From positions 1 through 64,000 of the forward strand of contig PHDA01000008.1 in assembly GCA_002842465.1 (NCBI GenBank): DNA of 64,000 nt, written 5' to 3'. The translations under genes and the position numbers were made by a program. This document shows positions 2,353 to 49,370 of the stretch, piece after piece. The notes under the pieces were generated by a model. The model ran no database searches. It worked only from the letters and a program-made list of their open reading frames with translations, and was not told the origin of the DNA. This DNA is from Bacteroidetes bacterium HGW-Bacteroidetes-7. GTDB lineage: Bacteria; Bacteroidota; Bacteroidia; Bacteroidales; UBA932. Each line of letters begins with the position of its first letter. Within the stretch, counting starts at the first letter, position 1.

Positions 2353-2360
2353 CAAAGATA
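2353..2360 (-). promoter_or_regulatory. -7 promoter element for the S46 peptidase
   Basis: On the minus strand this reads TATCTTTG, a perfect match to the Bacteroidota -7 consensus TAnnTTTG, about 41 bp upstream of the peptidase start. No clear TTTG -33 box is seen, because the expected spacer is filled by a palindrome at 2361-2381. Confidence 0.6.
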
Positions 2361-2381
2361 AATAATTCTGTCAGAATTATT
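2361..2381. promoter_or_regulatory. Perfect 21-bp palindrome, candidate operator
   Basis: Two 10-bp arms (left arm AATAATTCTG at 2361-2370, right arm its exact reverse complement at 2372-2381) surround one central T at 2371. It sits between the divergent -7 elements at 2353-2360 (minus) and 2383-2390 (plus), so it occupies the -33/-7 spacer of both promoters. No T-tract follows and the flanking genes diverge, so it is not a terminator. A dimeric repressor site is the simplest inference. Confidence 0.6.
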
Positions 2382-2382
2382 G

Positions 2383-2390
2383 TATATTTA
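2383..2390 (+). promoter_or_regulatory. Probable -7 element for glycerate kinase
   Basis: TATATTTA matches TAnnTTTG except at the last base. It lies 18 bp before the ATG at 2409, directly beside the palindrome at 2361-2381. Confidence 0.4.
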
Positions 2391-2408: not shown

Positions 2409-3575
2409 ATGATGAAGGTTCTCATACTTGTAGATAAGTTCCGCGGAAGTCTTTCCGCAAGCGAGGTTTCTGAGGCCATCGCAATTGGGTTACAATCATT
2501 TTCAGATAATTTGGATATTGTAAAGGTCCCTTTGGCAGATGGAGGTGAGGGAACTTTGGAAGCTGTTGAGAGAGATGGCACCGAGAGGTTAATGATAGAA
2601 TGTATTGACCCACTCGGGAGAGAAATTGTAGTGCCTGTGCTCAAAATGGGTGATCGGATTTTGATAGAGATGGCAAAGTCTACAGGACTGCACCTATTGA
2701 CCAGAGAGGAGAGGAATCCTCTATACACCAGCAGCTATGGCCTTGGGTTGGTGATAAAAAAGGTGTCTGAAATGGGCTTTAAAAATATACTTATTGGTAT
2801 AGGAGGTAGCGCTACAAACGATGGTGGGGCCGGAATGCTGGAGGCATTGGGGTTTCGTTTTGTTGATGAGGAGGGTAGGGACGTAAGGCTTGGTGAGCAC
2901 ATTACAGGTCGTGATCTGATTAATATAAGAAATGTAGACGATTCAGGGTCCAATCCATTATTAAAGGAGTTAAATATTGAGGTTGCAAGTGATGTTACTA
3001 ACACTCTTGTCGGGGCTAAAGGGGCAAGTAGAGTTTATGGACCGCAGAAAGGAGCAGGGGAAGTTGAGGTTGAATATCTTGAAAAGGGGATGCAAAATTT
3101 TGCTAAGGTATCAGCAGACTATCATGGCAAAGATTTCTCTTCACTACCTGGATCCGGAGCAGCCGGGGGTGTGGGTTTTGGCCTTATAGCATACTGTGGA
3201 GCAACGTTAAAGAATGGGTGGCGGGTTTTGTTCGACTTTATGGATGTTGATAAAAGCATTATGGAATCACATCTTGTGATTACAGGCGAGGGTCGTGTAG
3301 ATGAGCAAAGTTTATCCGGAAAGTTGTTGGCAGGAGTTGGAGAGCTTTGTAAAAAACACAAAAAGCCTCTTTGGATTATATGTGGAGATAACCATTTGGC
3401 CAACAAAGATGTTAGAAAAGTAGGAGCCTCTATTCTGTTTGCGATCTCTTACATTGAGCCGGAAAAAGAGCTTGCAATAAAGAATGCCAGGGAGTATCTT
3501 GAAAAAATTTCCGCCGATGCTGCAACTTTTCTAAAGGATATTCAGTCTAACAATCGAACAAATAATACAAAATAA
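2409..3575 (+). CDS. Glycerate kinase (GlxK/GarK family)
   Basis: Phosphorylates D-glycerate with ATP, feeding glycerate into lower glycolysis or serine metabolism. The 388-aa product has the family landmarks PLADGGEGTL (residues 41-50) and GIGGSATNDGG (130-140), with full length for the GlxK type. Two consecutive ATGs (2409 and 2412) are both possible starts; a separate ATG at 2404 is closed by a stop two codons later. It heads a plus-strand run of four genes with short gaps (1 bp to the next gene), so it may be cotranscribed with the downstream membrane protein and ECF sigma module. Whether it makes 2- or 3-phosphoglycerate cannot be read from sequence. Confidence 0.92.
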   Translation: MMKVLILVDKFRGSLSASEVSEAIAIGLQSFSDNLDIVKVPLADGGEGTLEAVERDGTERLMIECIDPLGREIVVPVLKMGDRILIEMAKSTGLHLLTREERNPLYTSSYGLGLVIKKVSEMGFKNILIGIGGSATNDGGAGMLEALGFRFVDEEGRDVRLGEHITGRDLINIRNVDDSGSNPLLKELNIEVASDVTNTLVGAKGASRVYGPQKGAGEVEVEYLEKGMQNFAKVSADYHGKDFSSLPGSGAAGGVGFGLIAYCGATLKNGWRVLFDFMDVDKSIMESHLVITGEGRVDEQSLSGKLLAGVGELCKKHKKPLWIICGDNHLANKDVRKVGASILFAISYIEPEKELAIKNAREYLEKISADAATFLKDIQSNNRTNNTK

Positions 3576-3576
3576 T

Positions 3577-3921
3577 ATGGAAGGAGTATTTGGAATCATA
3601 AGCCCGTTTTTAACCGCCATCATAATAATCCTTATAGTGTTTATCTCAAAGGTATTAAGAGAAAGGTCAAAAAACGAAGTAATTATGAAAGCGCTGGAGC
3701 ATGGAAAGGATTTATCTCCCGAGCTACTGGCAGACAGAAGAAAAGAGAAAAAGAGCGACCCGCTTGCATCATCTCTTATTATTATTGGAATTGGAGTTGG
3801 AATATTCATTTCCCTCTATCTTTTCTTTAATGAATTAAAATTTGCCGCTTTCGGATTCATTCCCCTCTTTATCGGTTTAGGACAGTTAACGGCCTACCTG
3901 ATAAACAAAAAGAATGGTTAG
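3577..3921 (+). CDS. Small membrane protein, DUF6249-like
   Basis: A 114-aa protein with a hydrophobic segment at about residues 5-24, a charged central stretch rich in Lys/Arg/Glu, and two more membrane segments near 68-85 and 91-108. It resembles small three-helix proteins found beside ECF sigma and anti-sigma genes in Bacteroidota (DUF6249 by recollection, not confirmed). It starts 1 bp after the glycerate kinase stop and precedes the sigma gene by 26 bp. A role in sensing or tethering for the sigma module is inference from position only. Confidence 0.7.
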   Translation: MEGVFGIISPFLTAIIIILIVFISKVLRERSKNEVIMKALEHGKDLSPELLADRRKEKKSDPLASSLIIIGIGVGIFISLYLFFNELKFAAFGFIPLFIGLGQLTAYLINKKNG

Positions 3922-3947
3922 GGACGAAGGATTAAAAACAAAAGAGA

Positions 3948-4442
3948 TTGACCAGAGCAGAATTTGAACAACAGGTTAAGTTAAATCAGGAGCCGCTCAG
4001 ACGGTTCCTGATTAACCTCTGCGACGGCAACCTCTCACTAGCAGATGATATTGCACAGGAGGCGTTTATAAAGGCATATATGAATCTTGGCAGTTTCATC
4101 GGAAAATCAAAATTCTCCACCTGGCTTTTTAAGATTGCATATAACAGCTTTTGTGACAATAAAAGAGTATCGCAAAGACAAGCAAGCACTGAGCTAATAG
4201 ACGGCAAGTTATACGCAAGTGAAAATCCTGAAGACAACTACAGGAATCAGGAGCTCCAAATGGCATTATCCAGGCTGAACGAAAAGGAGAGAGGATGCAT
4301 TCTGCTTTTTTATATGGAGGATAAACCAATAAAAGAGATAGCATTAATAACGGGAATAAACGAAAATACGGTGAAATCCCACCTCTCAAGGGCGAAATCA
4401 AACTTAGAGACACATTTAAAAAGTATCGGTTATGAAAGATGA
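3948..4442 (+). CDS. ECF-type RNA polymerase sigma factor (first of two)
   Basis: A 164-aa sigma-70 family factor. Region 2 includes LADDIAQEAFIKAYMNL (residues 31-47) and the KFSTWLFKIA block (55-64). Region 4 at about 108-152 has the helix-turn-helix PIKEIALITGINENTVKSHL. The start must be the TTG at 3948: an in-frame TAA at 3933 lies upstream and the codons between are not start codons. The downstream gene overlaps by 11 bp, so the two are translationally coupled, as is usual for a sigma with its anti-sigma. Confidence 0.9.
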   Translation: MTRAEFEQQVKLNQEPLRRFLINLCDGNLSLADDIAQEAFIKAYMNLGSFIGKSKFSTWLFKIAYNSFCDNKRVSQRQASTELIDGKLYASENPEDNYRNQELQMALSRLNEKERGCILLFYMEDKPIKEIALITGINENTVKSHLSRAKSNLETHLKSIGYER

Positions 4443-4767
4443 TAATATAAAGAGGTTTTTTGATGACCATAAACAGACAATTAGTGACCAAGGTTTTAGC
4501 GAGCGATTGTTTGCTACTTTGGATTGTCTTCCGCAGCCTGAAGTAAAAAAGGACAGGAGCAGGTTCATAATTCCTGTTTTTGCACTTGCAGGGTTTTTAA
4601 TCTTTGTACTCCTGGGTGGATATAGCGCAATAATTGATGGTCTAACATCATTAGGGGGAACATTTAGTGAATTGAAATCGGTAACTCCGGAAATAGTTGT
4701 GTCATTTCTTTTAACAGCGCTTGCCATATTTGGTGTTAGTAAATTTGCCAACGAAGAGGTTGGTTAA
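4432..4767 (+). CDS. Putative anti-sigma / membrane partner of the ECF factor
   Basis: A 111-aa protein with a short cytoplasmic N-terminus (a KRFFDDHKQTISDQGFSERL block, residues 6-25) and two membrane helices at about 43-66 and 85-104. The N-terminal block resembles DUF5056-type proteins that accompany ECF sigma genes in Bacteroidales; I give that name from memory. It lacks a recognisable zinc anti-sigma motif. The 11-bp overlap with the sigma gene is the main evidence for function, so the anti-sigma role is inferred. Confidence 0.65.
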   Translation: MKDDNIKRFFDDHKQTISDQGFSERLFATLDCLPQPEVKKDRSRFIIPVFALAGFLIFVLLGGYSAIIDGLTSLGGTFSELKSVTPEIVVSFLLTALAIFGVSKFANEEVG

Positions 4768-5416: not shown

Positions 5417-5812
5417 TTAATATTCAGGAAGCCTTTCACGAAGAACTCCAATGATACTCTCTTTGGTTTCAAGATTTGCTTTAAGAACATTTATCTCCCC
5501 CTCTTTTTCGGCTAGCTTTATTCTATAAGCAGTCTCGGAGATGTCAAGCTTCTCTTTAAACTCCTTTTCAATAACACTTAACTTTTGTGAATAATCGAAT
5601 GACGAAGCGGTGTCAAAAATTAAGTTTTCAAGAGGTTTGTCAAGAATTTTTGCAATCTCTTCAAGACGGGGGTTTACCAGTAATGTTGTGCCACTTTCAA
5701 TTTCGCGATATGAGTTCACCGATATACCCAAGATTGTAGCCATGTACTCCTGGGTATAGCCAAGGGACCTTCTCTCCCTTTTAATGCGCTCTCTTATCTG
5801 GTCGAAATCCAT
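5417..5812 (-). CDS. XRE-family helix-turn-helix regulator with C-terminal coiled coil
   Basis: Translation from the ATG at 5812 gives 131 aa; an upstream in-frame ATG would add a weak 14-residue extension. Residues 5-62 form a Cro/CI-type DNA-binding domain (LGYTQEYMATILGISVNSYREIE), followed by a Glu/Lys-rich predicted coiled coil from about 75 to 125, likely for oligomerisation. Target genes are unknown. It is upstream of rnhB on the same strand and diverges from a small AraC-like gene. Confidence 0.8.
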   Translation of the reverse strand: MDFDQIRERIKRERRSLGYTQEYMATILGISVNSYREIESGTTLLVNPRLEEIAKILDKPLENLIFDTASSFDYSQKLSVIEKEFKEKLDISETAYRIKLAEKEGEINVLKANLETKESIIGVLRERLPEY

Positions 5813-6005
5813 ATATGACAAATTTATATTTAAGATGGCACTGTTGAACAACAACCATAAGTTGTGAAATAAACAGGAAACACATGTGATATTTGGAAAA
5901 TAAATTTAAAAAAAGATATAAATGAATTAAAATCAGATAAACCACATGCTGAGGTTTGCTTTAAGATATGATATGGGTATACATTTGCATAAAAATTATG
6001 TTTTT

Positions 6006-6317
6006 ATGAAATGTGAGATTGCAGATTTTCAAAGGGCAAATTCCCTTGTGGAGATATTCGAAAACCAGAAACTATTTATTAATCCACAACTCGGCTCAGC
6101 AGACATTGCGTTAGCATTAGGTGTAGAGGTCATACATCTGGAGATGTCGGCAAAAATCCACTTTGGGCTATCGCTAAGAGAGCTTACGGACATGTATAGA
6201 GTGCAGCATGCGACAGAGCTACTCAAAAAAGGTGTTCCCTATAAAGTTTTATACAAATATTCCGGATTTCGTTCTTTTAGCTGCTTTGAAAGGGCAATTG
6301 ACGATATTGTCTATTGA
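6006..6317 (+). CDS. Stand-alone AraC-type DNA-binding domain protein
   Basis: About 103 aa from the ATG at 6006 (the frame is open from 5946, but the added residues look non-coding). The product consists almost only of an AraC-type double helix-turn-helix: a first HTH around SADIALALGVEVIHLEMS and a second around VPYKVLYKYSGFRSFSCFERAI. There is no ligand-binding or receiver domain. Either a naturally minimal regulator, as occurs in Bacteroidales, or the remnant of a larger gene; no frameshifted upstream part is visible in the 150-bp gap before it. Target unknown. Confidence 0.6.
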   Translation: MKCEIADFQRANSLVEIFENQKLFINPQLGSADIALALGVEVIHLEMSAKIHFGLSLRELTDMYRVQHATELLKKGVPYKVLYKYSGFRSFSCFERAIDDIVY

Positions 6318-6407: not shown

Positions 6408-8561
6408 ATGAAAGTCTATCCCACCCAAAGCATCCGTAACGTAGTCCTTATAGGGAATACGAAATCTGGTAAAACTACCCTTGCGGAGACAATGTTGTTT
6501 GAAGGTAAAGTAATTGATCGTAGAGGATCGGTTGAGGCGAAAACAACAGTCAGTGACAACTCAGAAATCGAGCAGATTTATCAACGTTCAATTTATCCGG
6601 CTCTGTTGTATACAGAGTTTATGGATAATAAGCTGAATATAATTGATACTCCCGGCTCAGACGATTTCGTAGGAGGAGTAATATCTGCATTTAAGGTTGC
6701 CGATACCGGAGTTATGATTGTCAATGCACAACAGGGTGTTGAAGTTGGGACTGAAATACTGGCCCGTTACGCTGAAAAACATAATAAACCACTTATTCTT
6801 GGAGTAAACCAACTTGATCACGAAAAGGCAAACTGGGAAGGAGCGTTGGAATCTTTAAAGAAGACTTTTGGAAAAAAAGTGGTCCTTATTCAATTTCCGA
6901 TTGATCCGGGGCTTAATTTCAAGTCTTTTGTGGATGTACTAAAGATGAAAATGTATGTTTTCAAAGATGAAAACGGTACAAGAGAGGAGCATGAAATTCC
7001 TGCAGACCTGGCAGATCAGGCAGCGGAATACCATCAGGAGCTTGCTGAAATGGCAGCCGAAAATGACGAAGCTTTAATGGAGGCCTTTTTTGATAAAGGG
7101 CAGCTCAGTGAGGAAGAAATACGTAAAGGCCTTTCGATAGGTCTCTCAAAATGCGAAATCATGCCGGTTTTCTGTCTTTCGGGAAAGAAAGACATTGGAG
7201 TTAAAAGGCTAATGGAGTTCATAATCAACGTTGCACAAACTCCTGACAAAACTGTTCAGACCCTTAAGACTGGCGAAACTGTACCTTGTGATGAAAAAGG
7301 ACAAACATCTCTTTTTATTTACAAAACTGCAATCGAACAACACCTTGGTGAGGTATCATATTTCAGGGTAATGTCAGGAAAACTGACAGAGGGAATGGAT
7401 GTAGTTAATCATGAAACAGGAGCAAAAGAGAGAATTTCAACAATATATGCTGTTGCCGGCAAGAAGAGAGATAAGCTTACCGAGATTGTAGCGGGAGATA
7501 TCGGATGTACTGTTAAACTTAAGTCTGTGAAAACTAACCAGACTCTTAACAGTGGATCAAAAGAGTGGGCATTTGAGCCAATCATATTCCCTCCTTCAAA
7601 ATTCAGAACTGCAATAAAGGCGAAACAGGAGAAAGACGAGGAGAAACTAGGTGAATTGCTTAACAAAGCTCACGCAGAAGATCCAACTATCAGAATTGAA
7701 TATTCTAAAGAGTTAAAGCAAACAATTTTGAGTGGACAAGGCGAGCACCATATTAATATTCTTAAGTGGCACCTTACAAACACAAACAAGATAGAGGTAG
7801 ATTTATTTGCCCCAAAAATTCCTTACAGAGAGACAATTACAAAAGTTGCGCTTGCTGATTACAGACACAGAAAACAATCGGGTGGTGCCGGACAGTTTGG
7901 CGAAGTTCACATCCTTATAGAGCCTGTAGTAGAGGGAGTTCCTGCCGGAAACAAATTCAAAATTGAAGGAAAGGAACTTGTTCTTAACCTAAAAGGTAAA
8001 GAGGAGTTTACTATGGACTGGGGAGGCAAGCTGGAATACTATAACTGTATTGTAGGCGGTGCAATTGATGCCCGTTTTATGCCTGCAATCCTAAAAGGAA
8101 TAATGGAAAAAATGGAAGAGGGTCCTTTGACAGGTTCTTATGCTCGCGACATTCGTGTGTTCGTATATGATGGTAAAATGCACCCGGTAGATTCAAATGA
8201 GATCTCCTTTAAACTTGCAGGTAGAAATGCATTTAAGGAGGCATTCAAAAAGGCAGGGCCGAAGATTATGGAGCCAATCTATAATATAGAGGTTCTTGTT
8301 CCAAGTGAAAGTATGGGTGATGTGATGAGTGACCTACAGAATAGAAGAGCTATGATTGAGGGAATGAGCAGTGAAAAAGGATTTGAGGTTTTAAAGGCAC
8401 GCGTTCCTCTGGCCGAGTTACACAAATACTCTACAACCCTAAGCTCGCTTACGTCAGGAAGAGCCACCTTTACAATGACTTATGCAGATTACCAGCAGGT
8501 TCCTGCGGAGGTTCAGGATAAGTTGCTCAAGGATTACGAAGCAAGCGAGAAGGACGAATAA
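6408..8561 (+). CDS. EF-G paralogue with degenerate GTPase site (EF-G2 type)
   Basis: A 717-aa protein with the full EF-G domain order, but with divergent nucleotide motifs: G1 is GNTKSGKTT (residues 16-24) rather than AHIDAGKTT, the switch I RGIT is RSIY (60-63), G3 is DTPGSDDF (80-87) so the catalytic His is Ser84, and G4 is NQLD rather than NKxD. Domain IV-V motifs such as the [15 protein letters not shown] block are kept. This is the pattern of Bacteroides EF-G2, which is established to support translation without normal GTPase activity during nutrient limitation. The neighbouring LepA (13464) has canonical motifs, so the changes here are real. Confidence 0.88.
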
Positions 8562-15284: not shown

Positions 15285-15318
15285 AAAAAAGACCGGCTGA
15301 ATTTCAGCCGGTCTTTTT
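15285..15318. terminator. Bidirectional intrinsic terminator between lepA and the TPR lipoprotein
   Basis: A 10-bp perfect stem, GACCGGCTGA at 15291-15300 pairing with 15304-15313, with a 3-nt loop ATT, flanked by an A-run (15285-15290) and a T-run (15314-15318). It therefore works for both convergent genes. A smaller palindrome TTCTCCGCGGAGAA at 15257-15270 followed by four T lies just upstream. Confidence 0.9.
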
Positions 15319-17092: not shown

Positions 17093-17842
17093 CTATATAA
17101 GCCCTTTAGCCCTTAAAAAGTCAACATCTGCGGGGGTGTCAACTGAATATGAGGCAAAGGCAGTTTTTCCCACCACAATTTTTATACCATTTTCAAGCCA
17201 GCGAAGCTGCTCAAGGCTTTCAGCATTTTCAAGAATTCCGGGAGAGAGGCTATTTATTTTTATCAACGCCTCACGGGTATATCCGTATAGACCGATGTGT
17301 TTGTAAAAATCGCACTTTTCAATCCATTTTTCAACCGGGAAATCACGAAGGAAAGGTATGGGTGTGCGACTGAAATATAGCGCTTGACCGTTGGTGCCAA
17401 AAACGACTTTTGGAGTGTTAGGATTCAACAACTCCTCGTTGTCAGTTATCTTTTTTGCTAGAGTAGCTATCATTGTTCCGGGAACATCAAAACAACCGAC
17501 AAGCTCTTTTAGCTGAAGCGGCTCAACAAAAGGCTCATCACCCTGTATGTTTATTACCATCTCGCAAACCTCACCGGTAATCGCCTCAATTTTGTACATT
17601 GCTTCAAGAACTCGACTTGTACCATTAGGATGATCAGCCGAGGTCATCACTGCATTACCTCCGTTTTGGGTTACAATATCATATATTCTATTGTCATCAG
17701 TTGCAACATAAACATTATCGAAAGCCTCCCTGCTCCTTGAATATACCCTCTCGACCATTGTAACTCCTCCTATCAGGGTGAGAGGTTTGCCGGGAAAACG
17801 TGTAGATGCGTATCTTGCCGGTATGATTGCCAGAATTTTCAT
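17093..17842 (-). CDS. kdsB: 3-deoxy-manno-octulosonate cytidylyltransferase
   Basis: Activates Kdo as CMP-Kdo for lipid A/LPS core synthesis. The 249-aa product opens with the nucleotide-binding IIPARYASTRFPGKPL, then carries the VYVATDD segment, INIQGDEPF and the GLYGYTREALIK block, all typical of KdsB. Length fits (about 248). It diverges from the sigma-54-type activator, and a -7 element lies 20 bp upstream. It is close to lptE, another LPS gene, but on the opposite strand. Confidence 0.96.
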   Translation of the reverse strand: MKILAIIPARYASTRFPGKPLTLIGGVTMVERVYSRSREAFDNVYVATDDNRIYDIVTQNGGNAVMTSADHPNGTSRVLEAMYKIEAITGEVCEMVINIQGDEPFVEPLQLKELVGCFDVPGTMIATLAKKITDNEELLNPNTPKVVFGTNGQALYFSRTPIPFLRDFPVEKWIEKCDFYKHIGLYGYTREALIKINSLSPGILENAESLEQLRWLENGIKIVVGKTAFASYSVDTPADVDFLRAKGLI

Positions 17843-49347: not shown

Positions 49348-49370
49348 AAGGGCTGCCATTGGCAGCCCTT
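49348..49370. terminator. Bidirectional terminator between frr and pgk
   Basis: Stem AGGGCTGCC (49349-49357) with GGCAGCCCT (49361-49369), loop ATT, one more A-T pair outside. T-rich sequence follows on both strands though it is interrupted. Serves the two convergent genes. Confidence 0.8.

Follow-up and report, generated by a model that had tools for sequence, protein, structure and literature searches.

A perfect 21-bp palindrome between the predicted divergent S46 peptidase and glycerate kinase promoters in a small clade of Bacteroidales

The analysed window, a 64-kb stretch of a Bacteroidales genome (64,000 nucleotides in full), carries near its beginning an S46 dipeptidyl peptidase gene and a glycerate kinase gene that point away from each other, and a perfect dyad is located between the start of the former on the minus strand and the start of the latter on the plus strand (Table 1). 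In an alignment, the peptidase has Gly in the motif FDGNWE where the DPP11 structure 4xzy has FDRNWE, and from the Gly at this position we take the enzyme to be DPP7-like. Downstream of the other start, the genes for glycerate kinase, the DUF6249 membrane protein, the ECF-type sigma factor and a 111-aa protein make up a close-packed plus-strand run (2409-4767). The sigma factor gene is probably on the same transcript as glycerate kinase, and the 111-aa protein is a possible anti-sigma partner. An ECF sigma gene adjoins glycerate kinase on the same contig in 20 of 25 congeners, the window's own genome counted, so the plus-strand unit probably serves more than glycerate use. Elsewhere in the window genome, a 44-bp segment (G000:C18:38136-38179, or 1501-1544 of L002) shares 80% identity with the S46 leader and the beginning of the gene.

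Table 1. Coordinates of the genes and sequence elements at the divergent locus
Feature	Coordinates	Strand	Remarks
S46 dipeptidyl peptidase	164-2311	minus	Pfam PF10459, E 1.7e-252
-7 element TATCTTTG, facing the S46 peptidase gene	2360-2353	minus	score 9.5, best of its strand in the intergenic region
Perfect 21-bp dyad AATAATTCTG-T-CAGAATTATT	2361-2381	none	10-bp exact arms, one central base
Weaker -7-like element TAATTCTG, within the dyad	2363-2370	plus	score 3.9 in the window
Inner core TCTGTCAGA, 9 bp	2367-2375	none	0/9 columns vary in the four-species clade
-7 element TATATTTA, facing the glycerate kinase gene	2383-2390	plus	score 8.1, best of its strand in the intergenic region
Glycerate kinase	2409-3575	plus	Pfam PF02595, E 2.5e-115
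DUF6249 membrane protein	3577-3921	plus	starts one base past glycerate kinase
ECF-type sigma factor	3948-4442	plus	Pfam Sigma70_r4_2 and Sigma70_r2
111-aa protein with hydrophobic segment	4432-4767	plus	ORF

The palindrome is exactly as the original prediction described it in position, arm length and single middle base. The two -7 elements were said to lie directly either side of it, which is true of the minus element, abutting the dyad, and not of the plus element, which is separated from it by a G (2382). For perfect palindromes with arms of at least 10 bp and no more than one central base, a first-order Markov model predicts about 0.33 in 64 kb; the window has three, namely the dyad and two terminator-type hairpins. 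The chance of such a palindrome in an intergenic stretch of the target's composition is 0.0012 under a model that includes the dyad's own bases, and none of 300 shuffles reached the observed arm length, either for the window or for its relative G150 (see below). The dyad is thus unusual for its spot and not extraordinary for a 64-kb search. Among 188 other intergenic regions (457 kb of the same genome), which were delimited with a crude ORF caller that lost the target region itself from the set, five comparable palindromes were found against 0.2 expected. Three of these read as terminators and two as A/T-rich, non-terminator-like dyads, and the occurrence of A/T-rich palindromes of the same length elsewhere in the genome counts in favour of an incidental origin of the dyad.

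An intrinsic terminator or RNA hairpin was discarded as an explanation for the dyad, which is A/T-rich, has a gene start on each side and precedes both predicted transcription starts. Elsewhere in the window, a G+C-rich perfect palindrome of 33 bp (15286-15318) is flanked by runs of A and T and by convergent genes (a LepA-like GTPase ORF and a 550-aa ORF, named by eye), and is likely a bidirectional terminator. A perfect 23-bp palindrome of the terminator type (49348-49370) also has convergent genes on its flanks, recycling-factor-like and phosphoglycerate-kinase-like ORFs as named by eye. Two A/T-rich perfect palindromes with 10-bp arms, GCAAAATTTTAAAAATTTTGC and TAATTTATAATTATAAATTA, were noted in the window genome in the intergenic regions starting near 7755 of G000:C27 (L083) and, after the window, near 17825 of G000:C13 (L088).

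Promoter elements were scored with a -7 model that was started from TAnnTTTG and refined by expectation-maximisation on 172 upstream regions of the same genome; the promoter statistics come from 457,025 bases, that is, the window and 20 further stretches. TAnnTTTG occurs 84 times in the 172 upstream regions as compared with 15 occurrences of its mirror image. The refined motif is present in 74% of the upstream regions used, with a median best score of 7.8 versus 4.7 after shuffling. Both -7 elements named in the original prediction are well supported by this model, since each is the top-scoring site on its own strand. Moreover, TATCTTTG or TATTTTTG is the top minus site in all 22 intergenic regions scored, the window included. 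Primary-sigma promoters of the Bacteroidota (sigma ABfr type) are described as having TAnnTTTG at -7 and TTTG at -33 (PMC7366714). Both elements here fit the -7 motif in its described and refined versions; however, no TTTG was found 19-21 bases upstream of either of them, and the plus element ends in A rather than G. The -33 signal is weak genome-wide.

The two -7 elements are 22 bp apart, and by the -7 convention transcription would start near 2350 on the minus strand and 2393 on the plus strand, ~44 bp apart. Anything bound between the elements, RNA polymerase included, would therefore affect both promoters. Bidirectional promoters of the Escherichia coli type have overlapping symmetrical -10 elements, and the locus was rejected as a member of this class on account of its 22-bp separation. 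In E. coli and Salmonella, such promoters are described as pseudo-symmetrical DNA from which transcription is driven in both directions, the binding of one polymerase ruling out that of another (PMC12825309, PMC10268837). The locus resembles them in having symmetrical DNA with divergent transcription and, presumably, in that one binding precludes the other; as those promoters are described, however, the symmetry lies inside the -10 element, whereas here separate -7 elements flank a spacer that holds the perfect symmetry.

Glycerate kinase is present in all 25 genomes of the genus compared, and a divergent S46 gene lies beside it in 24 of them (G077 and G156 included); none was found beside glycerate kinase within the flank examined in G030. 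The pair also occurs in five genomes from three other genera (G012, G037, G018, G140 and G130), and the core TCTGTCAGA is absent from all five. Matches to the S46 signature in L066 and L069 were in frames judged spurious and were excluded from the pair count. Of the 24 congeneric pairs, four contain the core (the window genome, G000, together with G143, G122 and G150) and two, those of the window genome and G150, the perfect 21-bp dyad; the other 20 have perfect dyads with arms of 3 to 5 bases only. The four core-bearing genomes form a single clade with 100/100 support, ordered (G150,(G000,(G143,G122))). The underlying tree comprises 23 glycerate kinases and leaves out G089 (no suitable frame) and G154 (a fragment). 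The wide occurrence of the gene pair, set against the restricted occurrence of core and dyad, counts in favour of an incidental dyad.

Within the clade, the degree of conservation differs between parts of the intergenic region. None of the columns varies in the minus -7 element (0/8), the plus -7 element (0/8) or the inner core, as compared with 1/10 in the left arm, 4/10 in the right arm, 9/41 in the peptidase leader and 13/18 in the glycerate kinase leader. Across these four aligned genomes there seems to be constraint on the inner core, unlike on the outer right arm. The motif matches of both -7 elements and their lack of variation count for overlapping promoters and the unequal change of the arms for an incidental dyad; the invariance of the core beside varying leaders counts against the latter. 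In G150, the same place is occupied by another perfect 21-bp dyad, AATAAATCTG-T-CAGATTTATT, in which one complementary A/T pair is swapped relative to the window, and the arms retain 7/10 pairs in G143 and 6/10 in G122. Depending on the model, two random substitutions would leave a dyad of the G150 type perfect with a probability of 0.02 to 0.09, a figure that concerns one contrast within a clade of four genomes and mildly favours an operator. Both this different perfect dyad and the result of the shuffles weigh against an incidental origin. A cruciform or supercoiling-sensitive element between the divergent promoters, as might be suggested by a perfect inverted repeat that separates two diverging transcription units, is very improbable, as the arm symmetry is lost in two clade members and an inverted repeat with A/T-rich 10-bp arms and a single-base loop forms cruciforms poorly.

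The main competitor is an operator confined to a single locus: in the four-species clade, a dimeric regulator would bind the dyad centred on TCTGTCAGA and block or tune both promoters. We regard this as a tentative possibility. It is kept alive by the core, which is invariant in all four species, and it gains from the paired A/T change between the perfect dyads of two of them, from the location of the dyad midway between the two -7 elements and from the low chance value for the stretch. On the clade tree, the change at the sixth base in the window may also be read as restoring a pair that was broken in a common ancestor. The erosion of the outer arms in G143 and G122 and the absence of the dyad from 20 of the 24 congeneric pairs argue against it. 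Correction of quasi-palindromes via template switching, as described in PMC8794818 and PMC7202029, makes or repairs perfect inverted repeats and yields paired changes in the absence of selection; the paired change in the dyad has the same pattern, which four sequences cannot separate from selection.

The outcome of a search for further sites also counts against an operator. The exact 21-mer with up to 3 mismatches has a single site in its own genome, the locus itself. In the four clade genomes, WWWWTCTGNCAGAWWWW was found at 10 sites, comprising the four orthologous copies of the locus and six coding sites. Allowing up to 3 mismatches, we obtained 17 sites for AATAAWTCTGNCAGAWTTATT (forward counts 4, 4, 5 and 4), four of which are the locus, and its mirror-pattern controls gave 1, 1, 2 and 0 forward matches. 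Twelve of the 13 remaining AATAAWTCTGNCAGAWTTATT sites were read (G122:C16 was left out): 11 are inside ORFs and the only non-coding one is a weak site with 3 mismatches in G150, upstream of a 497-aa ORF. Apart from this weak site, the searches of the four genomes revealed no further copy in a promoter, and with all other approximate matches that were read being intragenic no regulon is visible. Among 84,980 species genomes, the exact 21-mer occurs in three contigs, none of which was shown to have it adjoining an S46 or glycerate kinase gene, and these were rejected as relatives. Two of the contigs are near-identical, from uncultured Bacteroidetes, with the site just ahead of a short ORF and probably coding. 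Bacteroidetes SOS (LexA-like) operators, described as GGA-N5-TCC and CTAA-N5-TTAG (PMC8565304), are likewise short palindromes in promoters, there bound by a repressor; when compared by eye, neither these half-sites nor their spacing match TCTG-N-CAGA, and this assignment was dropped.

No regulator gene abuts the dyad. Two small, adjacent helix-turn-helix genes nearby were considered and rejected, namely HTH_3 at 5417-5854 (in 22 of 25 genomes) and an AraC-like gene at 5946-6317 (in 14 of 25), as both also occur in dyad-less species and their distribution does not coincide with that of the dyad. Within the clade, the AraC-like gene diverges much faster (44-74% identity) than the HTH_3 gene (84-93%). 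Literature searches for TTCTGTCAGAA returned, by title, only unrelated organisms or constructs; nothing was found on a Bacteroidetes operon of glycerate kinase and dipeptidyl peptidase, and nothing related on S46 peptidase regulation.

These results bear on the original prediction in several ways. It had named absence of the dyad from close relatives with the same gene pair as grounds for its own rejection, and this is largely what was observed: among the 23 other congeneric species with the pair, the core is found in three and the perfect dyad in one. Its proposal that a bound dimer places peptide and glycerate use under shared control is left without support, considering that the dyad is confined to few species, that no second promoter copy other than the weak G150 site was found and that neither HTH gene matches the dyad in its distribution; such control is now a hypothesis limited to the four-species clade. 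Glycerate use is also too narrow a role for a unit that apparently includes an ECF sigma factor. As to the blocking of both promoters by one dimer, an occupant of the spacer would indeed affect both. It is rather unlikely that an operator with one site only, made up of TCTGTCAGA and A/T arms that vary, arose in the clade, through which a dimeric regulator switches the S46 dipeptidyl peptidase and the unit from glycerate kinase to ECF sigma factor together. If this were the case, the paired A/T change between the window and G150 would represent compensatory evolution of an operator.

Part of the dyad may be explained by the promoters themselves. AATAAwT lies beside the S46 -7 element in the dyad-less G161, G111, G160, G151, G133 and G153, and the place of the left arm is taken by AATAAATCTG in G161 and by AATAATTCT in G133 and G153, which argues that conservation of the left arm has causes unrelated to the dyad. 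The counterpart of the weaker -7-like element is TAAATCTG in G143, G122, G150 and the dyad-less G161; it scores 5.2 in G161, where it is the best plus -7 candidate, and 3.8 in G150. The element is possibly a remnant of an older plus -7, and its weak plus -7 score would account for the left half in the absence of an operator. Promoter elements do not account for the right half of the core, which counts against an incidental dyad. These same elements count for a reading of the dyad as a second, weaker promoter motif, with two facing TAAwTCTG elements as extra or ancestral -7s for the two genes, as does the second promoter motif described for B. thetaiotaomicron, the near-palindromic PM2, whose elements are centred at -10 and -30 (PMC7366714). 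This reading is improbable, as TATATTTA is by far the higher-scoring element in the clade (7.2 to 8.1) and the PM2 elements, going by their description rather than their consensus, lie to either side of the spacer, the middle of which is occupied here by the conserved core.

Taken as a single contrast among four sequences, with two of them having gone the other way and template switching as an alternative, the paired change leaves the operator a tentative reading, and we give about an even chance to overlapping promoters with polymerase exclusion and an incidental, recent, local dyad in their spacer. The functional object would then be two primary-sigma (TAnnTTTG-type) promoters set closely back to back for conserved divergent genes, directed to the S46 peptidase on one side and to glycerate kinase, probably with DUF6249 and the ECF sigma factor, on the other. 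Given the spacing of the -7 elements and of the predicted starts, two RNA polymerases should be unable to bind at once, so that the two directions would compete. Control shared via polymerase competition would be a simpler consequence of the promoter layout, for which the dyad is not needed. The dyad itself would represent a symmetry that the A/T-rich spacer gained recently and in this lineage only, and not the operator of a wider regulon, with outer arms of presumably non-regulatory origin that may have arisen by substitution or short template switching. In all, the dyad seems to belong locally to a tightly arranged promoter region that both genes share, and it is no proven peptide/glycerate switch.

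The divergent arrangement of the S46 peptidase and the unit from glycerate kinase to ECF sigma factor is genus-wide and partly present in further genera, and its promoters are so close together that the two directions should interfere. The perfect, eroded and absent states of the dyad provide a small natural series for testing palindromes as operators versus by-products of symmetrical A/T-rich promoter DNA. In G111, G160 and G151 (L030, L031 and L032), only a few bases separate the ATG of glycerate kinase and the S46 -7 element, which leaves no space for an intervening plus promoter; in these genomes, TAATTTTA or TATTTTTA by the S46 start codon may serve as a replacement.
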